The notes under the pieces: generated by a model
Seen by the model: the letters and a program-made list of their open reading frames with translations, nothing else
Database searches by the model: none
Told to the model about the DNA's origin: nothing
In this document: positions 28,818 through 34,695 of the stretch, piece by piece
How positions within the stretch are numbered: position 1 is the first letter of the stretch
Layout: each line of letters opens with the position of its first letter
Assembly: GCF_900100385.1 (NCBI RefSeq)
Contig: NZ_FNFC01000001.1
Span: forward strand, 1-64,000
DNA: 64,000 bases
Source: Halovenus aranensis
GTDB taxonomy: Archaea > Halobacteriota > Halobacteria > Halobacteriales > Haloarculaceae
Direction of reading: 5' to 3'
Translations under genes and position numbers: made by a program

Positions 28818-29873
28818 CTACTCCCACTGGCGCTCGGCGAGCAGCGCCGGCCGCGAGGTCCAGACCAGTTGCTGGTGGTCGAGCCAGGCGACAACGACCA
28901 CGTGTGGTAGTGTCAACGCCGCTATCAACACGAGATAGAGGCCGACCCACTCCGAGATACTGCCGGGCGCGACCGGCACCAGCCAGTAGAACACCCCCAG
29001 AAAGACCAGCGACACGGCTGTCAGCGGCGCGGCGTCGCGGGCAAAGCGACCCAACGCCTGTCCGTATTCTCGGTCGGCCAGCCGCTCGCGTGCGGTCGGG
29101 TCGATAGCGAGCAGCCGACCGACGTGTCGGAGCGCGTGCCAGCAGGTGAAATAGAGCCCGACCGCGAGTACCGGCGGGACGAGCGCAAAGTACGCGACCA
29201 ACAGCCCCACCTCGCCGGCATCGACAAGCCAGTCGCGCCGGCGCTGGGCGCGGACGTATCCGAGCGCGAGCGACCCCGCCAGCAGTCCGGCGACCACGAC
29301 ACCGACCACGAGACGACCGTCGGGCGTGAACGCGCCTTCGGCCCAGCCGAGCGTCGGCGTCGTGAACAGGCCGACCAGCGTCTCGGTGACGAGCCGGTAC
29401 TGCTCGGGGAACGCGACAAGCGGGACGAGCATCGGGAGCGTGCCGCGGGCCAGTGCAGTCAGTGCCCGCTGGGCTGGCGTCGTGAGGTGGTCGACGCCAA
29501 GCACGCCAACCAGCGAATGAACCTCCCCCTGCCCCCAGTGGAGCCAGGTAATCAGGATGAAGACGGCAAAGGAGGCAACCGGGGCCAGAAACCAGGCCAG
29601 TGCGTAACAGCCACCGACGACAGCATACAGCACACCCACGGCCGCGAGTGAGCGCCCGGTCGGCGGCTGTCCCTGGACTCTGGTCGGTGCGAGGTGGTCA
29701 ACCGCGCCGTGTGGTAGCCCGAAAACGAGGACACTGGCGACCAGCGGGACGAACTGGTATCTGAGCGGGACCGTGAGCCCCGCGGCGAACGCGGCAGTTA
29801 TCACAGCGAAAACGACCCAGCCGGGGACGACTGTTAGCCGGACGAGCGACCGGCGAGCGCTGTCTGCTGTCAT
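28818..29873 (-). CDS. brp: Brp/Blh beta-carotene 15,15'-dioxygenase
   Basis: This 351-residue polytopic membrane protein has the conserved histidine motifs of the Brp/Blh family: FGLPHGAVDHLAP, ITWLHWGQGEVHS, FTCWHALRHVGRL and LTLPHVVVV. These bind the catalytic iron. It cleaves beta-carotene into two retinals, the chromophore of rhodopsins. It overlaps crtY by 4 bp, so lycopene cyclisation and cleavage are encoded as one unit. No rhodopsin gene is in the window. Confidence 0.92.
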   Translation of the reverse strand: MTADSARRSLVRLTVVPGWVVFAVITAAFAAGLTVPLRYQFVPLVASVLVFGLPHGAVDHLAPTRVQGQPPTGRSLAAVGVLYAVVGGCYALAWFLAPVASFAVFILITWLHWGQGEVHSLVGVLGVDHLTTPAQRALTALARGTLPMLVPLVAFPEQYRLVTETLVGLFTTPTLGWAEGAFTPDGRLVVGVVVAGLLAGSLALGYVRAQRRRDWLVDAGEVGLLVAYFALVPPVLAVGLYFTCWHALRHVGRLLAIDPTARERLADREYGQALGRFARDAAPLTAVSLVFLGVFYWLVPVAPGSISEWVGLYLVLIAALTLPHVVVVAWLDHQQLVWTSRPALLAERQWE

Positions 29874-30649
29874 CTCTCACTCGGGTCGCCTGTCACGCCG
29901 GGCAGGCTGGTGGGTGTCACCGTTGGCCACTGTGCGACGAGCCAGCAGTAGAGTACGTATCCCTGGACCACGAAGAGGTTCGTGACGACGAAAAACGTGG
30001 CCTCTTCGACCGGAAAGCCAAACGGCGCGAGTCCGACCGAGTACGTGTCGGCGATTGTCCAGAGGCCGAGCGAGATGGCCGTCCAGTCGGCGACCCAGAA
30101 ATACAGCGTCGGGACGGCCACCGCCGCCACGACCGCGCGACGGATGTAGACGAGATACGTCCAGCCAAACGCCCACTGAATCGCGAGGACCGGCCCAGCC
30201 CAGACGAGAATCGAGGCGAGATAGAGCCAGGAGTCTCCCGCGAGGAGCAGGCACACGCCGACCAGACTCACCCCGACGCCGCTCAACAGTCCGGCCAGTC
30301 GCTCGCGCACAGTAAGTGACAGCGACATGTCAGTAGGGAACTCGAACAGGCCCAAGAACAGAAGCGTCGCCGTCGGCTGTGCCAGGAAAAACAGGTATTC
30401 CCCGACCGGTGCGACCCAGATAGTCCGCCAGACGACGCCGTCGCCGTACCACCAGACGCCGACCTCGATAAGCAGATTATCCCAGGGAGTCGTGTAGCCA
30501 AGCGCGAGTCCGAGAATCACGACCATCCCGGCCACGGCGGCCGGACTGTCCAGCCGCGTGCCACGATACCAGGAGGCAGCGACCAGCAGTGCTATCACGG
30601 GGAGCGTGAACACGAGGTGAAACTGGAAGTACGTTTCAGGCGGTATCAT
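29870..30649 (-). CDS. crtY: Lycopene beta-cyclase (membrane heterodimer-type fused)
   Basis: This 259-residue membrane protein has two repeats of the lycopene-cyclase domain, each with about three helices. Conserved pieces include YTTPWDNLLIEVGVWWYGDGVVW, PVGEYLFFLAQP and FGFPVEEATFFVVTNLFVVQGYVLY. It converts lycopene to beta-carotene, which Brp then cleaves. The start at 30649 begins IPPETYFQFHLVFTLP, usual for the family. The promoter carries a Bat-type activator site. Confidence 0.92.
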   Translation of the reverse strand: MIPPETYFQFHLVFTLPVIALLVAASWYRGTRLDSPAAVAGMVVILGLALGYTTPWDNLLIEVGVWWYGDGVVWRTIWVAPVGEYLFFLAQPTATLLFLGLFEFPTDMSLSLTVRERLAGLLSGVGVSLVGVCLLLAGDSWLYLASILVWAGPVLAIQWAFGWTYLVYIRRAVVAAVAVPTLYFWVADWTAISLGLWTIADTYSVGLAPFGFPVEEATFFVVTNLFVVQGYVLYCWLVAQWPTVTPTSLPGVTGDPSER

Positions 30650-30714: not shown

Positions 30715-30744
30715 TATAATAACAACGTGCCCAACTAGTCAGGT
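30715..30744 (-). promoter_or_regulatory. crtY-brp promoter: Bat-type UAS plus TATA box
   Basis: On the minus strand, positions 30744-30730 read ACCTGACTAGTTGGG. The Halobacterium Bat (bacterioopsin activator) consensus as I recall it is ACCcnactagTTnGG; every strongly conserved base matches and only the weak fourth base differs. It is followed after 6 bp by GTTATTATA (30723-30715), a TATA box about 70 bp before the crtY start. The order, orientation and spacing mimic the bop promoter. Confidence 0.8.
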
Positions 30745-30765: not shown

Positions 30766-33700
30766 TTACCGGCTCCAGGGGAGCCGGTCGCGGGTCGACT
30801 CCCTTCGACGTCCGATGACCGATTCGGCCCAACTGATTACCTCGTCGAGTACGTCGGTCGGCTCCTCGTCGAACTCGAATTTCCGGATGTGGTCGAGGTT
30901 GCCGTCTTCGTGTCCGCCAATCATGTGCGTTGTCTGGCGGTCGCTCTCGGTGGGAACGAGGTAGGCGAGCACGTTGTTGTGTGCCTTTGCCGTCTCGTAC
31001 TCCGAGAGACGCCGCGAGGAGTCGTAGTCGACCAGTATCGAGAACTTCGAGAGCATCATGTAGATGGCGCGTTTCTCCTCTGCGGGCCGCCCCTCGACGT
31101 CGGGCAGCGCGTCGGCGAGGCGGGCGTCGTAGCCGCGCTCGGTTAGCCCGGTCTCGAGGCTGTCGAGGTCGTCGCCGTCGCCAGTGCTCGCCTCCATCAG
31201 GAGGACAGAGCTGTCGATGGTCTCGACGACCGTATCGAGCGCGTCACCGAAAGCCGCGAGGTCGCCGCCCTCGTCGGCCATCGCCTGCAGGTAGCCGGCG
31301 TCGGCGACGCTGCGCAACGCCTCAATCTGGGTGCGCAGGTCCTCTCGGGTCTTTGGCTGGCCCCAGTACTCTTGGAGTTTCGGACGGTCGTCGACCGGCT
31401 CGACGTCGATGGGTTCCCCGGAGTGACGAATCGCCTCTAGTCCCGCCTGTGCGCTCTCGATTGTCGAGAAGTACGGTATGTTCTCCTCGACACAGACTTC
31501 GAGTACGTCACGGTCGCGGGTGAGCACGAAGTCGATATCGCCGGCCCGTAGCGCGTCGGTGACCGCCTCCTTGCTGTCGAAGTCATCGAACTCCTGTACG
31601 TCGAAGAACTCGGTGAAGCCGACGACCGGCAGGTCGACGAGCGCGACACCCTCTTTGGGGATGGGACGACCGCGTGCCATCTGGGCTTTCTCGTAGGCTT
31701 TGCCGAACGTCGACGCCGTCCCCATTACCTCACCGGTCGATTTCATCTCCGGCCCGAGCCGCGGGTCACTGCCCGGGAGCCGGTCAAACGGCAAGACGAC
31801 ATCTTTGACGCTGACCTCGTCGGGAATCTGCTCCTCGTAGTCGAGTTCTTCGAGGGAGGCACCGGCCATCACCTTCGCCGCAATCTTGGCAATCGGGACG
31901 CCCGTCGCCTTCGAGACAAAAGGCACCGTCCGCGAGGACCGCGGATTCGCCTCCAGCACGTAGACCTCGCCATCTCTGACCGCAAGCTGGACGTTCAACA
32001 GCCCGACCGTATCGAGCGCCTGGGCGATGTTCTCGACGACCTCTCGCACCCGGCGGTTCACGTCACGACCGAGCGACCGGGGCGGAATCATACACGCCGA
32101 GTCGCCGGAGTGGACGCCGGCGGTCTCGACGTGTTCCATCACGCCGCCGATGAGGACGTTTTCGCCGTCAGCGACGGCGTCGACGTCGAGCTCGACGGCA
32201 TCAGCGAGGAACTCGTCGATGAGGATTGGCTTCTCTGGAGAGACCCGGACGGCCTCCTCGATGTAGGTTTCGAGGTCCTCGTCGTTGTAGACGACTTCCA
32301 TCGCCCGGCCGCCGAGCACGTAGGACGGCCGGACCAGCACGGGGTACCCGATGTCGTGAGCCAGTTCCAGCGCCTCCGACTCGCTGGTCGCGGTCGCACC
32401 CTCGGCCTGTGCGATTCCGAGACCGCCCATCAGCCGGTTGAACCGGTCGCGGTCCTCGGCGAGGTCCATCGCGTCGACCGAGGTGCCGAGCACCTCACAC
32501 TCGAGCTCACGCCGGTCCAGTTCCTGCTCCAGTGGGCGGCCGATATCGACGCTGGTCTGGCCGCCGAACTGGACCATCACGCCGTCGGCCTCGGTCGCCT
32601 CGATAACGTCGGCGACCTCCTCGGCCGTAATCGGCTCGAAGAAGAGGCCATCAGAGGTGTCGTAATCCGTCGAGACGGTCTCGGGGTTGTTGTTGACGAC
32701 GTGGGCGTCGATGCCCATCTCCCGAAGTGCCCGCACGGCGTGTACCGAGCAGTAGTCGAATTCGACACCCTGACCGATGCGAATCGGGCCGCCGCCGACG
32801 ACGACGACGCTCTCGATGTCGCGGTCGACCTGCAGTTCGTCGCGGTCGAGCGTCGACACCGGGTCACGCGTCGAGTAGTAGTACGGCGTCGAAGCGGCGA
32901 ACTCGCCGGCACAGGTGTCGACCAGCTTGAAGTCGCGGTCGACCGTGCGCCCGGCGACAGCGTCCACCGAGATAGCGGTGCCGCCGTCGGGCGCGGGGTT
33001 GCCCTCGACGCTCTGTGTGTCGCCCAGCGACTCGGGCAGCCAGGAGGCGTGGGTATCGTTGAACTCGCCGCCGGCGAGTGCTGTAATCTCCTGGTCGGTA
33101 AAGCCCACGTTCGCGGCCGTCTCGAAGTCACCGTCGCTCGCGGCCGCGGCGGCTCTTGCGACGCGTTTGTAGCGCTCGACGTACCACTCTCGAATCTCTG
33201 TCAGCTCGACGACCTCCTCGACGGCGTAGCCGCGCTCGAAGGCCTCGAACATCGCGTACGGCCGGTCCGGCGTCGGCGATTCGAGATACTCGGTCTCAAG
33301 CTCGTCGTCTGTGACGTCGCCCCAGTCCGTCGCCGGGTCGTACTCCGAGGAGCGAAGCGCCTTGAGCAGCGACTCCTCGAAGGTCCGGCCGATGGCCATC
33401 GCCTCGCCGGTCGATTTCATCGCCGGCCCGAGCTCGAAGTCCACGTCGGGGAACTTGTCTTTTGGCCATCTCGGGACCTTGGTGACGATGTAGTCGATAG
33501 CGGGCTCGAAGGCCGCCGTCGTCTCGCCGGTAATCTCGTTGTCGATTTCGTGGAGGCGCTTGCCGAGTGCGACCTTGGCGGTGACGCGAGCGATGGGATA
33601 GCCCGTCGCCTTCGAAGCCAGCGCCGAGGACCGCGACACGCGGGGGTTGACCTCGACGACGCGGTACTCGCCGCCGGGCGTGCCGTCGTCGTGCCAGGCG

Positions 33701-34554
33701 AACTGGATGTTACAGCCGCCCTGGATGCCGAGTTCGCGGATGACCTTCAGCGCGGTGTCGCGCATCTCCTGGTGACCGTCGTCGGGGATGACCTGCGAGG
33801 GGGTGACGACGACGGACTCGCCGGTGTGAATCCCCATCGGGTCGATGTTCTCCATGTTACAGATGATGATACAGGAGTCGTCGGCGTCGCGCATCACCTC
33901 GTATTCGAGTTCTATCCAGCCGTCGATTGACTCGGTAATCATCACGCGGTTGTCCCGGGAGAGACTCAGTCCCTTCCTGACCGCGTCTTTGAGCTCGTCC
34001 ATGTCGCCGATGACGCCCGACCCGGCACCGCCGAGCGTGTAGGTCGTTCGCATGATGACCGGCAGACCGCCGACGGCCTCGACGGCCTCCTCGACCTCGT
34101 CCATACTCTCGATGGTGACCGACTCGGGGACCGGCTCGTCGATGGCCTCCATCCGCTGGCGGAACTGGTCGCGGTCTTCGGTCGCGTATATGGTATCCAG
34201 CGGCGTCCCCATAACCTCGACGCCGTACTCCTCCAGCACTCCCTCCTCGGCGAGTTCGGCCGTGACGTTCAGGCCGGTCTGTCCACCCAGACCCGCGATA
34301 ACGCCGTCTGGCCGCTCTTTCCGGATAATCTCGGCGATTGCCTCGGTGTTGATGGGCTCGATGTACACCTCGTCGGCCATGTCCGGGTCGGTCATGATGG
34401 TCGCGGGATTCGAGTTGACCAACACGACGCGTGCGCCCTCCTCCTGGAGCGCCCGACAGGCCTGTGCCCCCGAGTAGTCGAACTCTGCCGCCTGTCCGAT
34501 CTGGATTGGACCGCTCCCGATGAGCAGTATTGTCCGGTCTTCTCCCTCTGTCAT
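30766..34554 (-). CDS. carB: Carbamoyl-phosphate synthase large subunit with extra C-terminal domain
   Basis: This 1262-residue protein makes carbamoyl phosphate from glutamine-derived ammonia, bicarbonate and 2 ATP for pyrimidine and arginine synthesis. It has two homologous synthetase halves: LLIGSGPIQIGQAAEFDYSG at the start, and a second half beginning VVVVGGGPIRIGQGVEFDYC. An MGS-like allosteric domain ends near YFSTIESAQAGLEAI. CarB is normally about 1060-1080 residues. Here about 195 residues follow DRPKLQEYWGQP. The tail has SSVLLMEASTGDGDDLD, KRAIYMMLSKFSILVDYDSS and THMIGGHEDGNLDHIRKFEF. The ATG at 34554 fits a TATA element at 34577-34583 (leaderless). carA is not in the window. Confidence 0.95.
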   Translation of the reverse strand: MTEGEDRTILLIGSGPIQIGQAAEFDYSGAQACRALQEEGARVVLVNSNPATIMTDPDMADEVYIEPINTEAIAEIIRKERPDGVIAGLGGQTGLNVTAELAEEGVLEEYGVEVMGTPLDTIYATEDRDQFRQRMEAIDEPVPESVTIESMDEVEEAVEAVGGLPVIMRTTYTLGGAGSGVIGDMDELKDAVRKGLSLSRDNRVMITESIDGWIELEYEVMRDADDSCIIICNMENIDPMGIHTGESVVVTPSQVIPDDGHQEMRDTALKVIRELGIQGGCNIQFAWHDDGTPGGEYRVVEVNPRVSRSSALASKATGYPIARVTAKVALGKRLHEIDNEITGETTAAFEPAIDYIVTKVPRWPKDKFPDVDFELGPAMKSTGEAMAIGRTFEESLLKALRSSEYDPATDWGDVTDDELETEYLESPTPDRPYAMFEAFERGYAVEEVVELTEIREWYVERYKRVARAAAAASDGDFETAANVGFTDQEITALAGGEFNDTHASWLPESLGDTQSVEGNPAPDGGTAISVDAVAGRTVDRDFKLVDTCAGEFAASTPYYYSTRDPVSTLDRDELQVDRDIESVVVVGGGPIRIGQGVEFDYCSVHAVRALREMGIDAHVVNNNPETVSTDYDTSDGLFFEPITAEEVADVIEATEADGVMVQFGGQTSVDIGRPLEQELDRRELECEVLGTSVDAMDLAEDRDRFNRLMGGLGIAQAEGATATSESEALELAHDIGYPVLVRPSYVLGGRAMEVVYNDEDLETYIEEAVRVSPEKPILIDEFLADAVELDVDAVADGENVLIGGVMEHVETAGVHSGDSACMIPPRSLGRDVNRRVREVVENIAQALDTVGLLNVQLAVRDGEVYVLEANPRSSRTVPFVSKATGVPIAKIAAKVMAGASLEELDYEEQIPDEVSVKDVVLPFDRLPGSDPRLGPEMKSTGEVMGTASTFGKAYEKAQMARGRPIPKEGVALVDLPVVGFTEFFDVQEFDDFDSKEAVTDALRAGDIDFVLTRDRDVLEVCVEENIPYFSTIESAQAGLEAIRHSGEPIDVEPVDDRPKLQEYWGQPKTREDLRTQIEALRSVADAGYLQAMADEGGDLAAFGDALDTVVETIDSSVLLMEASTGDGDDLDSLETGLTERGYDARLADALPDVEGRPAEEKRAIYMMLSKFSILVDYDSSRRLSEYETAKAHNNVLAYLVPTESDRQTTHMIGGHEDGNLDHIRKFEFDEEPTDVLDEVISWAESVIGRRRESTRDRLPWSR

Positions 34555-34576
34555 TGTCGGTTGGAGTCCGTACATC

Positions 34577-34648
34577 GTAATAAGCCCGACGGAATGGTAC
34601 GAAACTCGAAGGCGACTTTCGAAATTCGAATTGCTGGCAACGAATTTC
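34577..34648 (-). promoter_or_regulatory. carB promoter with an 8-bp dyad upstream
   Basis: GTAATAA at 34577-34583 (TTATTAC on the minus strand) sits 23-29 bp before the carB ATG and suits a leaderless transcript. Further upstream, GAAATTCG (34621-34628) and CGAATTTC (34641-34648) are perfect inverted repeats around a 12-nt spacer that itself contains TTGC-TG-GCAA. The symmetry and AT-richness suggest a dimeric regulator site. Confidence 0.5.
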
Positions 34649-34695
34649 AAAACGTCCGGACTGACGGCGGTGAGACCGGGTTCACCGCGCAGGGG

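Follow-up and report, generated by a model that had tools for sequence, protein, structure and literature searches.

A putative Bat-type operator upstream of crtY-brp in a haloarchaeal genome lacking the locus-linked Bat gene

Introduction

In Halobacterium NRC-1, bop, brp and crtB1 have UAS sites nearby, and Bat is described as the sensor-activator; according to the same review, HTH_10 proteins can also serve other promoters, as exemplified by DmsR (PMC1447603). Proteins of the Bat type have been studied as BAT-LOV* (Yee et al. 2015, PMC4682037) and as archaeal LOV-HTH proteins (PMC4844311). Loss of the cysteine in Bat LOV domains is already known (PMC4682037, PMC4844311), and a BAT-LOV protein without it binds flavin and responds to redox (PMC4682037).

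We rebuilt the consensus of the operator from Halobacterium-type loci (L026-L029), leaving out the bop promoter of H. salinarum DSM 3754, whose contig begins ~90 bp before bop. The sites of Halobacterium sp. TGN-42-S1 read ACCATACTGATTGGG at bop, ACCCCACTAGCTGGG at brp, ACCCCACCAGTTTGG near crtB and ACCCCAGCAGTTTGG at a fourth promoter and have ACC...(T/C)T.GG in common, and the bop promoters of Haloplanus, Halohasta and SHRA6 carry ACCG(T/A)ACTGTTTGGG. Here, we describe a site in a 64,000-nucleotide stretch of the Halovenus aranensis genome (the window) that has every one of the bases shared by the four TGN-42-S1 sites. Like the Halobacterium UAS, it is an ACC-N9-TT.GG-type dyad immediately upstream of a retinal-protein TATA box. 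In contrast to the UAS, it precedes crtY-brp and not bop, brp or crtB1, it has no adjacent bat, and the bR promoter of its own genome is without the site, whereas the crtY-blh loci of Halobacterium (L148, L140) contain no such element.

Results

A single operator between carB and crtY

The initial annotation had reported a Bat consensus match at the crtY-brp promoter, and this is borne out, as the 15-mer ACCTGACTAGTTGGG agrees with ACCNNACTAGTTNGG at zero mismatches (Table 1). The interval assigned to it, 30715-30744, does contain the operator and takes in the TATA box as well, and the gap between the two elements, given as 6 bp, is in fact 7-8 nt. On the minus strand, the carB stop codon is followed after 21 nt by the operator, then by the TATA box and, ~65 nt further on, by the crtY ATG, the distance from the operator to crtY-brp being 80 nt. 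The start of crtY is fixed by an in-frame TGA two codons ahead of the ATG, and crtY and brp/blh overlap by 4 bases at the crtY stop. A hairpin at 30768-30788 falls within the final carB codons and lacks a T run, and we do not propose it as the carB terminator.

Table 1. Features of the crtY-brp locus and the LOV-BAT gene near the bR gene
Feature	Position	Strand	Basis or remark
Bat-type operator ACCTGACTAGTTGGG, dyad CCNNACTAGTNNGG	30730..30744	-	genome pattern search and conservation in relatives
TATA box TTATTATA	30715..30722	-	7-8 nt downstream of operator; read from sequence
crtY, CarR-type lycopene beta-cyclase, 259 aa, first in operon	29870..30649	-	TIGR03462, E 1.5e-34
brp/blh, beta-carotene 15,15'-dioxygenase, 351 aa	28818..29873	-	PF15461, E 4e-80; TIGR03753, E 5e-74
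carB	30766..34650	-	CPSase large-chain domains; upstream of operator, synteny
C21 multi-PAS (one LOV-type, GRNCRFLQ) GAF-BAT-HTH_10 protein, 1278 aa	L018:5977-9813		~4 kb from bR gene

Across the 3,287,116 bp of the genome (3.29 Mb), ACCTGACTAGTTGGG is the sole match to ACCNNACTAGTTNGG at up to one mismatch. Under an order-1 Markov model, 0.14 perfect matches are expected in the genome, 0.003 in the window and 5e-6 between carB and crtY; CTAG itself is depleted ~3.4-fold. When two mismatches are allowed, the window yields 5 matches vs 2.87 expected, and since this pattern is unremarkable, only the perfect match counts as evidence. A second exact copy of the dyad in the genome (C42:138196) was dismissed, being located inside a cas3-like reading frame (a gene named from its sequence).

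Conservation and TATA phase at crtY loci

Is the site a recurrent element of crtY loci? We gathered 100 crtY loci of the order, 98 of which were usable. In 19 of the 98, CCNNACTAGTNNGG lies upstream of crtY at a distance of up to 1.3 kb, the best of 63 other palindromic cores reaching 7. The remaining 724 kb of these loci hold only 5 ACTAGT in the CCNNACTAGTNNGG frame, and several of these, too, are at rhodopsin genes. The operator sits before crtY-brp or bR-crtY-brp, in many cases with a Bat-type gene immediately preceding it, and in relatives it is also found before halorhodopsin (L066, L067, L089, L193), bacteriorhodopsin (L191, L194) and crtB (L199). Its phase relative to the TATA box is constant: over the 30 exact sites collected from retinal-gene promoters, the A+T content is highest from +9 to +13 relative to the operator, with 0.97 A+T at +11, and the window promoter, with TATTAT at +9 to +14, fits this phase. 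A chance match, with which the absence of enrichment of the two-mismatch pattern in the window would agree, is hardly credible against the minute expectation for the intergenic gap, and it is already refuted by the relatives, in which the position, the sequence and the TATA spacing are all conserved.

The exact site is associated with a linked bat (14/33 vs 5/65 loci; odds ratio 8.8, Fisher p 8.7e-5, uncorrected for relatedness). This association disappears when one mismatch within 350 bp is permitted, an effect due in part to a family that carries the variant CCTAACCAGTATGG and has no linked bat. The variant is conserved in many genomes of this family (L095, L097, L102, L109, L116, L122, L124, L127 and L133, with no linked bat in the fetched locus), where it precedes crtY by ~80-120 bp and has the same TATA spacing.

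Operator copies were also seen at other kinds of genes. In G148, one is flanked by halorhodopsin and a divergent amino-acid permease, and G054 has one before a similar permease (L193, L197); G073 and G089 each have a copy at the 3' end of a LOV-BAT gene that is unlinked, with a lipoprotein-like gene nearby (L190:2044, L201:2014).

Bat and rhodopsin genes of the genome and its relatives

The initial annotation had stated that the window holds neither Bat nor a rhodopsin, which is correct. It had asked for both to be sought in the rest of the genome, where an absence of any bat homologue would have spoken against it. We found 12 BAT-domain matches, so that bat homologues exist in a loose sense, and four rhodopsins, with bR on contig C21, HR on C25 and one sensory type each on C22 and C53 (assigned from sequence and transducer neighbours). 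Further copies of the motif, which the initial annotation had likewise asked to be sought, did not turn up: besides ACCTGACTAGTTGGG there is none in the genome at up to one mismatch, and the genome's own bR, HR, SR and crtB promoters are all without the site. The locus thus does not belong to a co-regulated set of the Halobacterium bop/brp/crtB1 kind. A regulon shared with rhodopsin genes of the same genome is seen in the relatives G067, G148, G280 and G112.

In the sister species G293 (identity to the window genome 92% for carB, 86% for brp and 92% for bR), the gene order is carB-hop-bat-site-crtY-brp, as opposed to carB-site-crtY-brp in the window, and hop and bat thus occupy the point where the window has 21 nt between the carB stop codon and the operator. 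The bat gene stands directly ahead of site-crtY in G301, G303 and G293. In G224, carB is followed directly by the site with no bat between, and Bat is kept beside the bR gene. An orthologue of the linked Bat was not found in the window genome; the best match of the G293 Bat there, the C25 protein, is 31% identical, the same level at which this Bat matches the C25-type paralogue of G293 itself. The linked bat may have been lost, or may never have been at this place in the window lineage; both are compatible with G224 having the same bat-free junction. With the assembly still a draft in 56 contigs, a relocated bat could be missed.

Candidate readers of the operator

The linked Bats of relatives have a REC-LOV/PAS-GAF-BAT-HTH_10 architecture (determined for L089) and share the type of BAT-LOV* and the archaeal LOV-HTH proteins. 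Their PAS domain is LOV-like, with the adduct cysteine (NCRFLQ/NCRLLQ) in 23 of ~38 (L063-L161, L275, L215); Cys-less variants read NHR in H. salinarum and NPR in G293, G054, G023 and G243. In contrast, the window genome has no such linked-Bat protein, and its C25 paralogue (C25:174290-177127, 945 aa; PAS, GAFs, BAT, HTH_10), encoded at a site unlinked to the operator locus, is without the LOV cysteine motif.

When 94 BAT-HTH_10 regions were placed in a tree, the linked Bats grouped with the C25 type and the Bat of H. salinarum in one clade with moderate support (SH-aLRT 84), which has the recognition helix (R/P)xT(F/Y)HQHLRxA in common. The C25 protein is the sole member of this clade in the window genome, the C21, C22 and C42 proteins falling outside and C21 on a long branch. 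We rejected the C25 protein as a true Bat orthologue, since G268, G182 and G293 have orthologues of it in addition to a linked Bat. C25-type proteins in relatives that keep the linked Bat are 68% (G268) and 67% (G182) identical, and the site is present in G148, G051, G244 and G067, which have no close C25 relative. Both observations suggest that C25 probably had another job, and we name it only tentatively as the predicted reader of the operator.

It is improbable that a different regulator reads the site, be it the C21 LOV-BAT protein or a bat copy in an assembly gap. The C21 protein has a LOV motif, BAT and HTH_10 and is encoded beside the bR gene, but its recognition helix, SPAIYNHLQSA vs STFHQHLRAA, differs and it stands outside the Bat clade, though on that long branch. 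As to a gap, assembly completeness is 99.7% and the bat position at the locus is itself closed.

Close relatives of the C21 protein within the genus were seen only in G268 (56%) and G303 (52%). Its neighbourhood contains a chemotaxis-type transducer that also adjoins the bR gene (L018:9884-12247) and, ~3 kb from the bR gene, an RPE65-family carotenoid dioxygenase (L018:17125-18522), possibly a second retinal/apocarotenoid enzyme.

Discussion

Judged from sequence comparison, the 15-mer very probably is, or was, an operator of the Bat family, and we consider it probable that it still works as a putative binding and activation site of an HTH_10 protein for crtY-brp. The initial annotation had suggested Bat-type control of retinal synthesis by oxygen or light. 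An operator kept in relatives, TATA-phased and often beside a Bat gene speaks for the first part. Control by a locus-linked Bat is unsupported as stated, its orthologue being missing from the window genome. Oxygen or light control is unsupported as stated, the best remaining candidate reader being free of the LOV cysteine motif, and the proposal appears partly supported as a whole. The window site shares with the Bat UAS the conserved ACC...TT.GG, the TATA phasing, the position before a retinal gene and the presence of a Bat-clade protein with the HQH helix in the genome. We looked in the window genome for a linked bat and for a regulon shared with the rhodopsin genes and found neither, and membership among the Bat UAS is therefore not fully earned.

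The main rival explanation is a relic, in which a former Bat operator has lost its cognate bat, no reader is left and crtY-brp is transcribed from the core promoter alone. Such a relic would agree with a linked bat missing from the locus and from the rest of the genome and with bR, HR, SR and crtB promoters that carry no site. However, the ten defining bases of the operator are intact in the window, where the flanks align poorly and the 4-fold sites have diverged from G293 by 53% in crtY and 39% in brp, and from G224 by ~60% in crtY-brp, which argues, not conclusively, against a relic. By a rough estimate from these 4-fold figures, the ten bases would survive neutrally on the window branch alone in ~5% of cases, and the odds would be much lower if the loss of bat is older, as the bat-free carB-crtY junction common to G224 suggests. 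The loss of bat may, on the other hand, be too recent for the operator to have decayed. We regard the relic as unlikely.

For a working operator, we propose that the dyad CCNNAC / GTNNGG, placed roughly one helical turn ahead of the TATA box, would be bound by a dimer of a Bat-clade protein. The dimer would assist TBP/TFB in initiating transcription of crtY-brp, such that beta-carotene and retinal would be produced when the cell needs rhodopsins. The bat gene directly upstream would supply the cognate protein in the sister species and in other relatives. In the window genome, bat and hop would have gone from the locus and the operator would have been kept, the likeliest reason being that C25, with the same recognition helix, reads it. 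The full scenario of regulator replacement, in which Bat was lost, the operator was rewired to a LOV-less paralogue and retinal synthesis was uncoupled from the rhodopsin promoters, is possible, if rather doubtful.

In summary, to the Bat operator known from Halobacterium we add a concrete, TATA-phased CCNN-ACTAGT-NNGG operator, which in many haloarchaeal genera is linked to Bat genes, many of them with an intact LOV motif, and which predicts which rhodopsin, crtY-brp and crtB genes share control. The window genome, with a site and no bat, and its sister species form a natural test pair for regulator replacement vs decay. If true, the rewiring would represent a natural regulator replacement in an archaeal photobiology regulon.
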